64,000 bases of DNA from Providencia manganoxydans (GTDB taxonomy: Bacteria; Pseudomonadota; Gammaproteobacteria; Enterobacterales; Enterobacteriaceae). Where the stretch lies: contig NZ_CP067099.1 of the NCBI RefSeq assembly GCF_016618195.1, positions 2,356,001-2,420,000 of the forward strand. The letters run 5' to 3'. The translations under genes were made by a program, and so were the position numbers. Positions 29,319-33,088 of the stretch are shown piece by piece. The stretch's first letter is position 1; every line of letters begins with the position of its first letter. The notes beneath the pieces are model-generated. The model saw only the letters and a program-made list of their open reading frames with translations. It had not been told where the DNA came from and ran no database searches.

Positions 29319-29795
29319 TTAGTTTACGAATTTAGCAATAGACTGCTCATCCATACGATAACGGATCCATTCAGCTTGAGGCTCAGCACCAATACTATTA
29401 TAAAAGTCAATTGCTGGTTGGTTCCAATCCAATACGCTCCACTCTAAACGCTGGCATTTTCTTTCGCTGGCAATTTCAGCAATATATTTTAATAGTTTTT
29501 TACCCGCACCTGCTCCACGATAATTCGGAGAAACATATAAATCTTCCAAGTAAATTCCATTGTTTCCTAACCATGTGGAATAACTGGAGAAAAATACAGC
29601 ATAGCCAGCAGGCTTACCGTCAACATAACAAATTAGTGCTTCAGTGTTTGAATTATCACCAAAAAGTGAGTTTTCGATATCTGTCACTGATGCTTTAACT
29701 TCATGGCGTGCCTTTTCATATTCCGCGAGTTCGATGATCATATCGAGGATCAAAGAGGCATCTTTTAATGTAGCAGGTTTGATTTCAACGTTCAT
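29319..29795 (-). CDS. SSAT-like GNAT acetyltransferase
   Basis: A 158-residue protein resembling spermidine/spermine or thialysine N-acetyltransferases: IKPATLKDASLILDMIIELAEYEK at residues 5-28, NSLFGDNSNTEALIC near 43-57, a GIYLEDLYVSPNYRGAGAGKKLL motif A around 80-102 and LEWSVLDWNQPAIDFYNSIGA near 118-138. The conserved tyrosine and acidic residues of the SSAT active site appear kept. It probably acetylates a diamine, polyamine or lysine analogue. An ACTAAGGGAAC ribosome region precedes the ATG; the gene is monocistronic. Confidence 0.9.
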   Translation of the reverse strand: MNVEIKPATLKDASLILDMIIELAEYEKARHEVKASVTDIENSLFGDNSNTEALICYVDGKPAGYAVFFSSYSTWLGNNGIYLEDLYVSPNYRGAGAGKKLLKYIAEIASERKCQRLEWSVLDWNQPAIDFYNSIGAEPQAEWIRYRMDEQSIAKFVN

Positions 29796-29934: not shown

Positions 29935-29964
29935 TTGATAATAATTTATTTAGTTTGTTATCAT
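29935..29964 (+). promoter_or_regulatory. Predicted sigma-70 promoter of the ABC-F leader
   Basis: TTGATA at 29935-29940 and TATCAT at 29959-29964 are 18 bp apart. Transcription would start near 29971, some 35 bases before the leader ORF. Confidence 0.55.
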
Positions 29965-30005
29965 GTAAACATTGTTCAACACAGGAAAAAACAAGGAGGC
30001 TTATT

Positions 30006-30089
30006 ATGATGTTGTGTGATCTTATTGACTATTCACACTTCTTTGGTAATCGCCAAAGCTCAGGCTTTCACAGTGATACACTGCGATAA
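30006..30089 (+). CDS. 27-residue leader peptide of the ABC-F gene
   Basis: A perfect AAGGAGG (29993-29999) sits six bases before ATG-ATG at 30006-30011. The ORF runs for 27 codons to TAA at 30087-30089. The peptide begins MMLCDLIDYSHFFGNR and ends SDTLR. Its ribosome site is far stronger than that of the following ABC-F gene. Codons 18-20 form segment 1 of a four-segment attenuator, so ribosome position on this ORF should decide folding downstream. It resembles in layout, not in sequence, the leaders of erm, msr and vga-type resistance genes. I know no described homologue. Confidence 0.7.
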   Translation: MMLCDLIDYSHFFGNRQSSGFHSDTLR

Positions 30090-30194
30090 CCCTGCCTGAG
30101 CGAAGTGACTCAAGGAAACCTTCCTCAGCTTACTGGGTTGTCGTTCTGACTATACCCTGGCATTGCTATGCCTAAAAATTGAGTAAGCTATGAG
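30058..30194 (+). promoter_or_regulatory. Translational attenuator controlling the ABC-F gene
   Basis: Segment 1 GCTCAGGC (30058-30065) pairs with segment 2 GCCTGAGC (30094-30101). Segment 3 CTCAGCTTACT (30124-30134) pairs with segment 4 (AGTAAGCT at 30182-30189 plus GAG at 30192-30194), burying the ABC-F start codon. The alternative 2:3 pairing is also good: CTGAG at 30096-30100 and GAAG at 30102-30105 with CTTC at 30120-30123 and CTCAG at 30124-30128. A ribosome stalled on segment 1 would favour 2:3 and free the start. The pairings are seen; the switching is inferred. Confidence 0.65.
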
Positions 30195-31926
30195 CACATT
30201 ATTATCTGTAAAATCATTAAACTATGATACATCTACCACATCATTACTGAGCGATATCGATTTCACCTTAAAAGCAGGCGATCGTATTGGCTTAATTGGC
30301 CATAATGGTAGCGGTAAAAGTACATTATTAAAGCTATTAACTGGCAAATTGTCCCCTCGCAGCGGTAGCATTGTTTACGCAACTCAATGCGTGACTAGCT
30401 ATATTGAGCAACATTTACCTGATGACGTCGCTTGCCTGTCATTGATCGATGCCATCATGCATCAGTTGCCAATTCATGAACGACAAACAGAACGCTGGCG
30501 AGCAGAAATCTTATTAACGGATTTAGGCTTCAATGAAAGTCAATGGGAACAAAAAGCGAATCAAATTAGTGGCGGTCAACATACACGTTTGCTGTTAGGT
30601 CGTGCTTTAATTCAACAACCTGATTTAATGCTATTAGATGAACCAAGCAACCACTTGGATCTACCAACATTAATTTGGCTAGGTAACTTCTTGCATAATT
30701 GGAAAGGTAGCTTTGTTTTAGTATCACATGATCAAGAACTACTTGATAAAGTGACGAACAGCACATGGATCCTACGCGATAAAACATTGCATTTCTTCCG
30801 ACTTGCTTGTACTGCGGCACGTCAAGCGCTGAATCAAAAAGACATCAGTGATGCACAACGCCACCAAGCAGAACAAAAAGAAATTGACCGTATAGCTTCA
30901 AGCGCCAAACGTTTAGCAATATGGGGGCATGTTTATGACAACGAAGGTCTTTCCCGTAAAGCTAAGCAAATGGAAAAACACATTGATAAACTAAAAGATG
31001 CACAAACAGAGCTAACTGAAGGTTATCAATGGAAACTAGCACTAAACGGTAAGTCGATTCCGGCTGACAGAGTATTAGAGCTTGATAACGCTCACATTGA
31101 AACCCCCAATGGAAATCCTCTGTTTACGACTGGATTTCATCAAGTAAAAAGTGGCGACCGTATCGCGATTATTGGAGCTAATGGCTGTGGTAAATCGACG
31201 TTGTTACGTTTGTTATGGCAACGTTTTCAACATGATATGCGTTATGGCTCACAAGTTAAGTTTCATCCAGCAATCAGTACAGGCTATTATGACCAACAAC
31301 TACACCAGTTGAATGATGATGATAGTTTGTCAGACGCTTTGAGGCCATTTGCTACCTTAGTCGATGAACAACGTAAAATGGCCCTCATTAGTGCCGGTTT
31401 TGCTTACAACCGCCATCAACAAAAGGTGGCGACATTAAGTGGTGGAGAGCGTGCAAGGCTGTTATTTATTGGCTTAAGTCTCGCTCAATATGAGCTAATT
31501 TTGTTAGATGAACCTACTAACCATCTTGATTTAGAAGGGAAAGAAGCTCTAAGTGAACAAATTTCACAATTCGAAGGTGCACTACTGGTGGTTAGCCATG
31601 ATAAATGGTTAATCGAAAATAGTTGCCAACGTTTTTGGTATATCAATGATAATCGGCTAGAAGAATATCTTGATGTGAATGAAATATATCAGCAGATAGA
31701 AATGCAATCTCAGTCAAATAATATTACTGAAGCTAGCCGTTTCTCTCCAGCTGAAACAACAATCACTGAAATGGCTTCCCATGAAGATGAACTGTTAGAA
31801 ACATTATTACAACTTGAAGAAAAGCTGCAAGCTGATAAGCAACGTAAATTAGCACATCAAAAACCACAACTTCAGCAACAATGGATGGATGAAATAGAAA
31901 AAATACAGGCACAATTAAACCTCTAA
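30190..31926 (+). CDS. ABC-F family ATPase (ribosome-protection type)
   Basis: A 578-residue soluble protein with two ABC domains and no membrane helix. Domain 1 has Walker A GHNGSGKST (37-45), signature ISGGQHTRLLLGRAL near 125 and LLLDEPSNHLDLPT. A basic, helical linker (about 200-280) corresponds to the P-site tRNA-interaction motif. Domain 2 has GANGCGKST near 331, LSGGERARLLF near 417 and LILLDEPTNHLDLEG. A charged C-terminal coiled coil follows (about 525-578). It is none of the four standard E. coli ABC-F proteins (EttA, YbiT, YheS, Uup) as far as I can tell. The inducible leader upstream suggests antibiotic-resistance function. Confidence 0.88.
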   Translation: MSTLLSVKSLNYDTSTTSLLSDIDFTLKAGDRIGLIGHNGSGKSTLLKLLTGKLSPRSGSIVYATQCVTSYIEQHLPDDVACLSLIDAIMHQLPIHERQTERWRAEILLTDLGFNESQWEQKANQISGGQHTRLLLGRALIQQPDLMLLDEPSNHLDLPTLIWLGNFLHNWKGSFVLVSHDQELLDKVTNSTWILRDKTLHFFRLACTAARQALNQKDISDAQRHQAEQKEIDRIASSAKRLAIWGHVYDNEGLSRKAKQMEKHIDKLKDAQTELTEGYQWKLALNGKSIPADRVLELDNAHIETPNGNPLFTTGFHQVKSGDRIAIIGANGCGKSTLLRLLWQRFQHDMRYGSQVKFHPAISTGYYDQQLHQLNDDDSLSDALRPFATLVDEQRKMALISAGFAYNRHQQKVATLSGGERARLLFIGLSLAQYELILLDEPTNHLDLEGKEALSEQISQFEGALLVVSHDKWLIENSCQRFWYINDNRLEEYLDVNEIYQQIEMQSQSNNITEASRFSPAETTITEMASHEDELLETLLQLEEKLQADKQRKLAHQKPQLQQQWMDEIEKIQAQLNL

Positions 31927-32158: not shown

Positions 32159-33088
32159 ATGATCGGTATTGGCGTTATAATTGCTATAGTTATTGCTATT
32201 ATTTTCTATTTTTTGAAAAAATATACATCAGAAACATCAACAATCACATCTTTTTCCGAAGCAGAACCTCAGCTCGGTCATATATCCGAATCTCTTGAAA
32301 TTGACACTCCAACGCTAAAACCAAATGAATGGGGGCTGATTTTAAGCCTACCGTATTCATGCTTTAATGGACATGCCTATAACGATTATAATAAAGGACC
32401 ACATGACGGTGGACTATCACAGGCTTGGGGAGTATTTGATCGCTACAGCCTCATCCAGCAACTTTATTGGTTAATAACATCAGGCCATACAAATAATTAT
32501 TATTTATTACGTGACCAAGTGTCATATGCAAATAAAGTTGAGTTACAAGACATCATTCAAGAAGTAGAAAACTCATCCGATTCTGAAGAAAATAAAAAAG
32601 AACAACTTTGGCGTATAGAAATGATGGATAAGAACGTCAATGATATCTGTAACGTCAAATATATTGCTTGGGATTTTGTCCGCTTCAGCAAATTGTGTCT
32701 TGATGGGTGCCGCGCGGGTTATATTACGATACAAGAAGCACAAGATTGGTCACTGATGAGCGCGTCTATGATCAAACGTATTTATACTGGATGGGAGGAT
32801 TTTTGGGGAAATTTCCTTCAAACACGCTGGCTATGGGCGGCTAATGATAGTAATTGGTCCGAAAGTCAGCAAGAGTTTGCAGATAAAATTCAAGAAATAT
32901 TATTTGATACCAGTTACCCGATAACCCAAGAGACTTGGGATCTCAATCTACCCGCTATGGATTTAGAGTCTTTTACCCGAGCAGTGGCTGGGGTGGGCTT
33001 TACAACTGAAGACGGTACGCCTGTTTCATTATCACAACTTGAAGCATCTATATCACAGCGTTTAATCTCAAGCCGACTTGATAGCTAA
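32159..33088 (+). CDS. DUF1266 domain protein with N-terminal membrane anchor
   Basis: The 309-residue protein has one hydrophobic helix at residues 2-20 and then a long soluble part. The region 55-240 carries DUF1266 features: a EWGLILSLPYSCFNG opening, the QAWGVFDRYSLIQQLYWLITSGH block, a NVKYIAWDFVRFSKLCLDGCRAGYI-type stretch and AQDWSLMSASMIKRIYTGWEDFWGNFLQTR-type helices with many tryptophans. E. coli YbeR and YbeU belong here; they have no known function. The topology suggests the domain faces the cytoplasm if the anchor is reverse-signal type. It is monocistronic. Confidence 0.82.
   Translation: MIGIGVIIAIVIAIIFYFLKKYTSETSTITSFSEAEPQLGHISESLEIDTPTLKPNEWGLILSLPYSCFNGHAYNDYNKGPHDGGLSQAWGVFDRYSLIQQLYWLITSGHTNNYYLLRDQVSYANKVELQDIIQEVENSSDSEENKKEQLWRIEMMDKNVNDICNVKYIAWDFVRFSKLCLDGCRAGYITIQEAQDWSLMSASMIKRIYTGWEDFWGNFLQTRWLWAANDSNWSESQQEFADKIQEILFDTSYPITQETWDLNLPAMDLESFTRAVAGVGFTTEDGTPVSLSQLEASISQRLISSRLDS

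Follow-up and report, generated by a model that had tools for sequence, protein, structure and literature searches.

The window analyzed here, a stretch of 64,000 nucleotides from Providencia manganoxydans, contains at positions 29935–31926 a gene for an ABC-F protein, preceded by a short leader open reading frame (ORF) and by RNA segments that can pair in alternative ways (Table 1). The locus is considered as a candidate translational attenuator, in which ribosomes on the leader would decide whether the ABC-F start codon is accessible.

Architecture of the locus

The leader ORF has a complete Shine-Dalgarno sequence, and the ribosome site of the ABC-F gene consists of a GAG core only (30181–30183). 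A sequence-only reading of the window had reported both features along with four pairing segments, the first of them within leader codons 18–20, and had placed all of them correctly. Segment 1 pairs with the facing part of segment 2, GCCTGAGC (30094–30101). Segment 2 can alternatively pair with segment 3 (30096–30105 with 30120–30128) through nine pairs and one bulge, and segment 3 with segment 4 (30127–30134 with 30182–30189), a pairing that reaches around the ABC-F start codon. The combination of 1:2 and 3:4 is denoted OFF, and the alternative built on 2:3 is denoted ON. Two elements are additional to that reading. A 9-bp helix, CGATAACCC/GGGTTGTCG, encloses pairing 2:3 and extends it into one long ON stem that includes the leader stop codon, and a conserved hairpin stands between segments 3 and 4. 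The RNA of 29971–30204 folds at −69.0 kcal/mol, compared with −51.9 ± 4.5 kcal/mol for 200 shuffled versions, none of which is as stable (z −3.81).

Table 1. Features of the leader region and the ABC-F gene, in window positions
Feature	Position	Strand	Remark
Promoter-like TTGATA-18-TATCAT, TG before second hexamer	29935–29964	+	10/12 match
Shine-Dalgarno sequence AAGGAGG of leader ORF	29993–29999	+	
Leader ORF, 27 codons and TAA, MMLCDLIDYSHFFGNRQSSGFHSDTLR	30006–30089	+	codons 2–17 pN/pS 0.11 in Providencia
Motif [S/A][H/R]xF[G/S], here S H F F G, codons 10–14	30033–30047	+	candidate arrest motif
Segment 1 GCTCAGGC	30058–30065	+	within leader codons 18–20
ON helix, 5' strand CGATAACCC	30084–30092	+	last leader codon, stop codon and three bases
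Segment 2 GCCTGAGCGAAG	30094–30105	+	partner 1 (OFF) or 3 (ON)
Segment 3 CTTCCTCAGCTTACT	30120–30134	+	partner 2 (ON) or 4 (OFF)
ON helix, 3' strand GGGTTGTCG	30135–30143	+	
Hairpin GGCATTGCTATGCC	30159–30172	+	between segments 3 and 4; 4/5 pairs changed on both sides
Segment 4	30181–30192	+	GAG ribosome site and ABC-F start codon
ABC-F gene, 578 codons	30190–31926	+	ribosomal protection-like (possibly PAF1 subfamily)

The promoter that the earlier reading called consensus-like holds as a match to the hexamers but gains little from a scan of the region, in which four promoter-like sites are found against a mean of 2.3 in shuffles, a result that is weak by itself.

The ABC-F protein contains two ABC_tran stretches and passes the NCBIfam model NF000355, “ribosomal protection-like ABC-F”, with 417.1 bits (cut-off 380), which is a name and not a function test. 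Among the best 25 of 200 matches, it does not reach the cut-off of any other ABC-F model, whether for resistance (the named antibiotic resistance, or ARE, subfamilies) or for housekeeping proteins, including Uup and EttA. Two further models below their cut-offs are those that we take to be YbiT and YheS. Of the solved structures, YheS gives the best profile match (253.8 bits, in pieces), and ExpZ (8buu; 233.6 bits, residues 3–511) is one of two that are matched in a single stretch. The best phage-defence model, mad3, reaches 149.7 bits in four partial stretches, taken as general ABC-ATPase likeness. Judged by its sequence, the gene product is probably a ribosome-protection factor. It possibly resembles the PAF1 subfamily, as suggested by genus distribution; the relatives of this gene in Vibrio, Serratia, and Enterobacter records fit such a placement.

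Conservation of the leader and of its pairings

A first search (E ≤ 1e-80) finds the ABC-F gene in 29 of 99 genomes, namely the window's own genome, 21 of 23 from the same genus, 7 of 36 from other genera of the family, and none of 39 from other families. The gene is present in 47 of the 394 genomes of a second search across the order (E ≤ 1e-120). A third search of 369 genomes of the class, a few of them from the same order (E ≤ 1e-110), returns the own genome only, and a DNA search with 29935–30400 gives no match in 20,395 Escherichia coli records. The loci compared number 77, composed of 29 from the first search, 6 fetched from 36 matches in a plasmid collection, 40 new from the second search, and 2 further new ones, with 12 Providencia loci that repeat first-search genomes counted once.

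A leader of the common type lies upstream of the ABC-F gene in 74 of the 77 loci, in genera that include Providencia, Proteus, Morganella, Serratia, Rahnella, Pantoea, and Vibrio. Its length is 27 codons in 45 loci, 28 in 15, 26 in 12, and 25 in one, and AGGAGG precedes it in all 35 first-search and plasmid-collection loci. The 74th locus, L004, has a 33-codon frame. The sequence-only reading had staked its interpretation on retention of the leader and pairing segments in close relatives, and they are retained in 28 of the 29 first-search loci; the exception is L004, where the frame is altered, yet segments 1 and 2 pair through other bases, CTGGCAGG/CCTGCCAG. A 22-codon leader that contains the related string FARYLSN, and that may be an older form of the same sensor, is present at two loci with an ABC-F protein of only 40% identity (L073 and L074). 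Their leader, MKLSQLAFARYLSNLR[P/I]QSAVN, lies ~300 bases upstream of the gene and is followed by a different and longer sequence. For L075, with an ABC-F protein 39% identical, no leader could be found.

A covariance model of the element has matches in 45 of the 394 genomes, of which 44 are among the 47 that carry the ABC-F gene. In all 44, the match ends at the start of the ABC-F match or, in G058, within 15 bases of it, and the element occurs once in the own genome. Because the model was trained on most of these sequences or their close kin, and stricter filters lose weak matches, the result is the linkage to the gene and not the detection. The remaining match (G261, E 6.4e-4) has no ABC-F overlap, adjoins and partly covers a response-regulator gene, and is judged to be chance. 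A search of the Rfam covariance models gives no family, even at E up to 1.

Constraint on the leader is divided. In 15 distinct Providencia leaders (21 loci), codons 2–17 show 238 synonymous versus 106 non-synonymous pairwise differences, a ratio of non-synonymous to synonymous change per site (pN/pS) of 0.11, and codons 18–27 show 3 versus 144, although such pairwise differences are mutually dependent. The 13 distinct leaders of the 28-codon group give 0.15 for the front half and 1.00 for the back half (L004 is excluded from these and the motif counts). From this split, the front half is, as judged by sequence, kept as a peptide and the back half as RNA, with the border at the start of segment 1. 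A leader ORF that lies directly upstream of its target gene and appears to be retained as coding sequence is what an ErmC-type attenuator has. The conserved run of one regulatory codon that an amino-acid attenuator has is not kept between the genera.

Within the peptide-constrained half, the motif [S/A][H/R]xF[G/S] keeps the same distance from the stop codon in leaders of 26, 27, and 28 codons despite a variable front end. Counted from the stop in 73 leaders, position −18 is S in 46, A in 19, and P in 6 (71 together); −17 is H in 40 and R in 23 (63 together); −15 is F in 61, L in 7, and Y in 5; and −14 is G in 59 and S in 8. The codons of the motif vary synonymously (TTT 45, TTC 16; GGT 34, GGC 25; CAC 25, CAT 15), and those of the RNA-bound end are nearly fixed, with CTG for 68 of 71 Leu at −2 and CGA for 70 of 72 Arg at −1.

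The pairings are conserved as well. In an alignment of 71 distinct sequences (L073, L074, and L075 excluded; duplicates L007, L021, and L040 counted once), the OFF helices 1:2 and 3:4 together with the hairpin are paired in 87.9% of 1317 cells, compared with 18–43% when slid by 1–3 columns. Two-sided changes are seen in 67 cells, where shuffles give 24.5, and the covariation score of 0.187 compares with 0.135 for shuffles; none of 500 shuffles is as high in either measure. A typical change in 1:2 is that from GCTCAGGC/GCCTGAGC to GCTCAAGC/GCTTGAGC, and the changed pair is A-U in 31 sequences, G-C in 26, and no standard pair in 14. The end helix of the ON stem, with six aligned pairs, is paired in 99.5% of 426 cells against 17–68% when slid, with changes mostly involving G-U and A-U. 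In the 28-codon group, where the stop is TAG instead of TAA, an extended helix, CGATAGCGG/CCGTTGTCG, still pairs (L059, by eye). RNAalifold with the 71 sequences returns six pairs of 1:2 only, as expected with alternative folds and a gapped alignment. The small hairpin in the 1:2 loop (30071–30083) is CAGT/ACTG in Providencia and ATCG/CGAT in many other loci.

Partner swaps between species were made with 21 representatives less than 85% alike, drawn from the 74 loci. The native partner is better than the mean foreign partner in 20 of 21 for 1:2 and in 19 of 21 for the end helix. The alternative pairings of an ErmC-type attenuator, 1:2 with 3:4 and 2:3, are thus found at the locus, with 2:3 and 3:4 moderately supported by the swaps.

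Computed switching of the leader RNA

The switch itself is a computed one. In the model used, a ribosome blocks the RNA as far as 15 bases downstream of the first nucleotide of the codon in its peptidyl (P) site, and the openness of the ABC-F ribosome site and start codon is calculated. Averaged over the 21 representatives, openness of the full-length RNA is 0.38. With the P site 15 codons before the stop the mean is 0.45, an advance by one codon brings it to 0.53, the maximum of 0.64 is found at 8 codons, and the value at the stop itself is 0.40. The mean curve of 252 leader-shuffled versions is flat at 0.38–0.40. The mean gain is 0.224 for native and 0.015 for shuffled leaders, with 1.6% of shuffles attaining the mean of the native ones. 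Five extra loci were computed outside these means. A first scan of 35 loci, with 24 more gene bases, has the same shape but is weaker, with means from 0.41 to 0.54. Phenicol-type arrest at Ser 19, a site that coincides with the opening peak, was considered and dropped, as Ser 19 is fixed by the RNA and so gives no evidence. A drug context rule for phenicols is the background to that idea.

In the window's own leader RNA, taken at full length and unmasked, OFF (−69.0 kcal/mol) is ahead of ON (−60.0 kcal/mol) by 9 kcal/mol. With segment 1 masked and segment 4 not yet made, ON is the minimum at −33.1 kcal/mol. With segment 4 present and masking extended to 30078, ON has −32.2 against −31.7 kcal/mol for OFF. 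In these calculations, the RNA is a bistable switch in which ON is favored if folding is co-transcriptional.

Control of the ABC-F gene and its relation to known systems

A cis-acting, ErmC-like translational attenuator with arrest in the leader probably controls the ABC-F gene. The attenuator logic of the sequence-only reading is well supported by the conserved leader, the division between peptide and RNA constraint, the preservation of both sets of pairings, and the opening predicted for a masked segment 1. In the absence of an inducer, ribosomes would finish the 27-codon leader, 1:2 and 3:4 would form, with the ribosome site and start codon of the ABC-F gene buried. With an inducer, presumably a ribosome-targeting compound, ribosomes would arrest after the motif has been made, around codons 14–20, and would cover segment 1. 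Segment 2 may then take segment 3 as its partner while 30135–30143 pairs with the leader end, leaving segment 4 free for ABC-F production. The ABC-F protein would in turn free or protect ribosomes. Control is placed at translation because no conserved terminator follows, and a ribosome-targeting compound is the likeliest inducer because the downstream gene encodes a ribosomal protection-like ABC-F protein. Arrest, inducer, and protection are what we infer; the leader, its constraint, the pairings, and the gene linkage are read from the sequences.

Several results weigh against this mechanism. Two of five measures taken on the OFF helices and the hairpin do not rise clearly above shuffles, as pairs with two-sided changes number 9 against 7.0 (74 of 500 shuffles as high), and the further pair types number 22, below the 25.2 of the shuffles (of which 497 of 500 are as high). 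A single two-sided change is present in the ON end helix, and 75 of 500 shuffles of its partners score as well, so that it shows conservation more than covariation. The slid controls favor a structure drawn from the same sequences. Swaps support 3:4 (15 of 21) and 2:3 (14 of 21) only moderately, and on average a foreign partner equals or exceeds the native one in stability in 30% of single swaps for 1:2, 44% for the end helix, 37% for 3:4, and 36% for 2:3. In the peptide, the 22 other, diverged 27-codon leaders have pN/pS of 0.74 in codons 2–17 and 1.42 in the back half, which is less telling, and the motif of the 25-codon L058 is displaced by one codon.

The computed switch also has weaknesses. 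Opening is small in L004 (0.02), L032 (0.05), and L026 (0.09), and flat in L030, which is not one of the representatives. The window's own RNA opens late (0.42, 0.55, and 0.67 with the P site at −14, −11, and −10 relative to the stop codon), so arrest directly on the motif would be insufficient there. Before segment 4 is made and without masking, 1:2 leads ON by 1.2 kcal/mol (−57.4 against −56.2). The folding check with segment 1 masked, proposed by the sequence-only reading, gives ON as long as segment 4 is not yet made, but masking to 30066 with segment 4 present keeps 3:4 (−37.9 against −34.4 kcal/mol). In the folding model, the switch needs masking to ~30078 or co-transcriptional folding.

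Other explanations share part of this evidence. A general translation monitor, in which any slowing near codons 14–21 induces without sequence-specific arrest, as proposed for toiL, would account for the broad computed ON window (P site ~14 to 6 codons before the stop), and toiL reacts to several drug classes (PMC12121999). Such a monitor has no need for a peptide-constrained front half or for a motif at nearly fixed distance from the switch, and it seems an unlikely account. Alternatively, the leader might sense a metabolite or the supply of an amino acid instead of a drug, with the ABC-F protein acting as a housekeeping translation factor for difficult sequences. The his, tna, and speF leaders are precedents for metabolite and amino-acid sensing, and the internal motif and long leader are unlike the 3–9-codon leaders described for the resistance ABC-F genes compared here. 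Ribosome pausing is reported to be modulated by EttA, another ABC-F protein (PMC11282234). However, no single regulatory codon run is shared across genera, with H at −17 replaced by R, L, Q, or S; NCBIfam places the protein as ribosomal protection-like, below the Uup and EttA cut-offs; and the gene has a scattered distribution (29 of 99 genomes in one search, 47 of 394 in another), as is stated for resistance ABC-Fs (PMC6723617). Sensing of a metabolite or of amino-acid supply is regarded as unlikely.

Transcription attenuation, in which the RNA switch would govern termination in the manner of many leaders of resistance ABC-F genes, has precedents in msrD, vmlR, vgaA, and lmrC, and one weak terminator-like site is present at 30124–30137, where shuffles give 0.2. 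That site has a stem of five pairs and a T stretch that is interrupted (TTGTCGTTCT), no uninterrupted T run occurs there in the aligned relatives, and the OFF helix buries the start codon without a T tract after it. With no conserved terminator, this explanation is set aside as quite improbable. A chance ORF in a structured 5' untranslated region, conserved as RNA only, would agree with the RNA-constrained codons 18–27 and with L004, which keeps its pairing despite an altered frame. It is scarcely credible given pN/pS values of 0.11 and 0.15 in codons 2–17, the strong Shine-Dalgarno sequence, and an ORF of 25–28 codons in 73 of the 74 common-type loci.

The translational attenuator proposed here is known in its ErmC-like architecture and new in its leader peptide family, its ABC-F target, and its location on Gram-negative chromosomes. 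In ErmC, four RNA segments take part in the pairing. A ribosome stalled on the ermCL leader ORF reshapes the RNA, and the start site of a resistance gene becomes free. ErmC is a Gram-positive system that controls a methyltransferase, whereas here an ABC-F gene lies behind another and longer leader, with an ON stem that includes the stop codon, on chromosomes of Enterobacterales and Vibrio relatives. The paper on uORF4u uses ermCL as its bacterial example (PMC10219788).

Resistance ABC-F genes behind a leader ORF and a switching RNA are also known for cplR, vmlR, vmlR2, lsaA, msrD, and tiaA/are5sc. The leaders of cplR, vmlR, vmlR2, and lsaA are reported as MR[I/M], MIN, MK[L/Q], and MAGN, with cplR combining transcription and translation attenuation (PMC10201436), and that of msrD as MYLIFM (PMC10314930). 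For the tiaA/are5sc leaders MLV and MVGDDDISG, lincosamides, pleuromutilins, and streptogramins are reported to stall the ribosome on the start codon (PMC12421871). The leaders compared here are short and Gram-positive, and many of them act through transcription termination; in contrast, the present leader has 25–28 codons, an internal motif, and no conserved terminator. An enterobacterial likeness is the toiL upstream ORF of E. coli topAI-yjhQP, where stalled ribosomes unmask a downstream start (PMC12121999). The target of toiL is a toxin-antitoxin operon, its pairing runs along the ORF, and its sequence is different.

The PAF1 ABC-Fs were predicted in 2019 to be resistance factors from phylogeny and patchy distribution, and the words leader, upstream, and ORF are absent from the main text of that paper (PMC6723617). 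In the open-access literature searched, it is the only paper that joins PAF1, ABCF, and antibiotic resistance, and no further work on PAF1 after it was found. The available part of a 2026 Pseudomonas review names only MsrE and four housekeeping-like ABC-Fs (PMC13159725). The sequence-only reading knew of no description of such a leader, and none was found in the open-access literature searched either.

If the gene is PAF1, a conserved attenuator would be independent evidence for synthesis on demand when ribosomes stall. The locus points to inducible antibiotic defense in Gram-negative bacteria. A bolder proposal, held only tentatively, is that [S/A][H/R]xF[G/S] defines a new class of arrest peptide, an old sensor, shared among Enterobacterales, Vibrio, and their relatives, of a natural ribosome inhibitor, perhaps a non-clinical one, that induces a dedicated ribosome-protection factor. 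If this is true, the system would be a Gram-negative counterpart of the intrinsic ABC-F defenses of Gram-positive bacteria, with an independently evolved sensor that is internal and longer. The attenuator as such would bring control of ribosome protection by leader peptides to Gram-negative chromosomes and offer a new arrest motif for structural work. The leader would be a ready sensor for finding the inducer by reporter in laboratory E. coli, and susceptibility tests without induction may overlook such a gene.

Some minor observations concern individual loci. In the window, a DUF1266 protein is encoded downstream of the ABC-F gene (32159–33088) and a divergent GNAT acetyltransferase upstream (29319–29795). 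At L029 (G011), of the same genus, the leader is intact and the partial ABC-F match contains an internal stop, and one stop is flagged inside the matched ABC-F stretch at L036, L041, L055, and L056. At L031 (Morganella morganii p48659_1) and L032–L034 (Pantoea, Rahnella, and Ewingella), the ABC-F gene with its leader is carried by a plasmid or megaplasmid. The Ewingella plasmid pB61a (L034, 1–389) carries a second annotated ABC-F gene ~2.7 kb from the leader-bearing one. Two Proteus mirabilis records of ~4.1 Mb, which is chromosome-sized, are filed as plasmids in PLSDB (NZ_OL790811.1 and NZ_OL790812.1).
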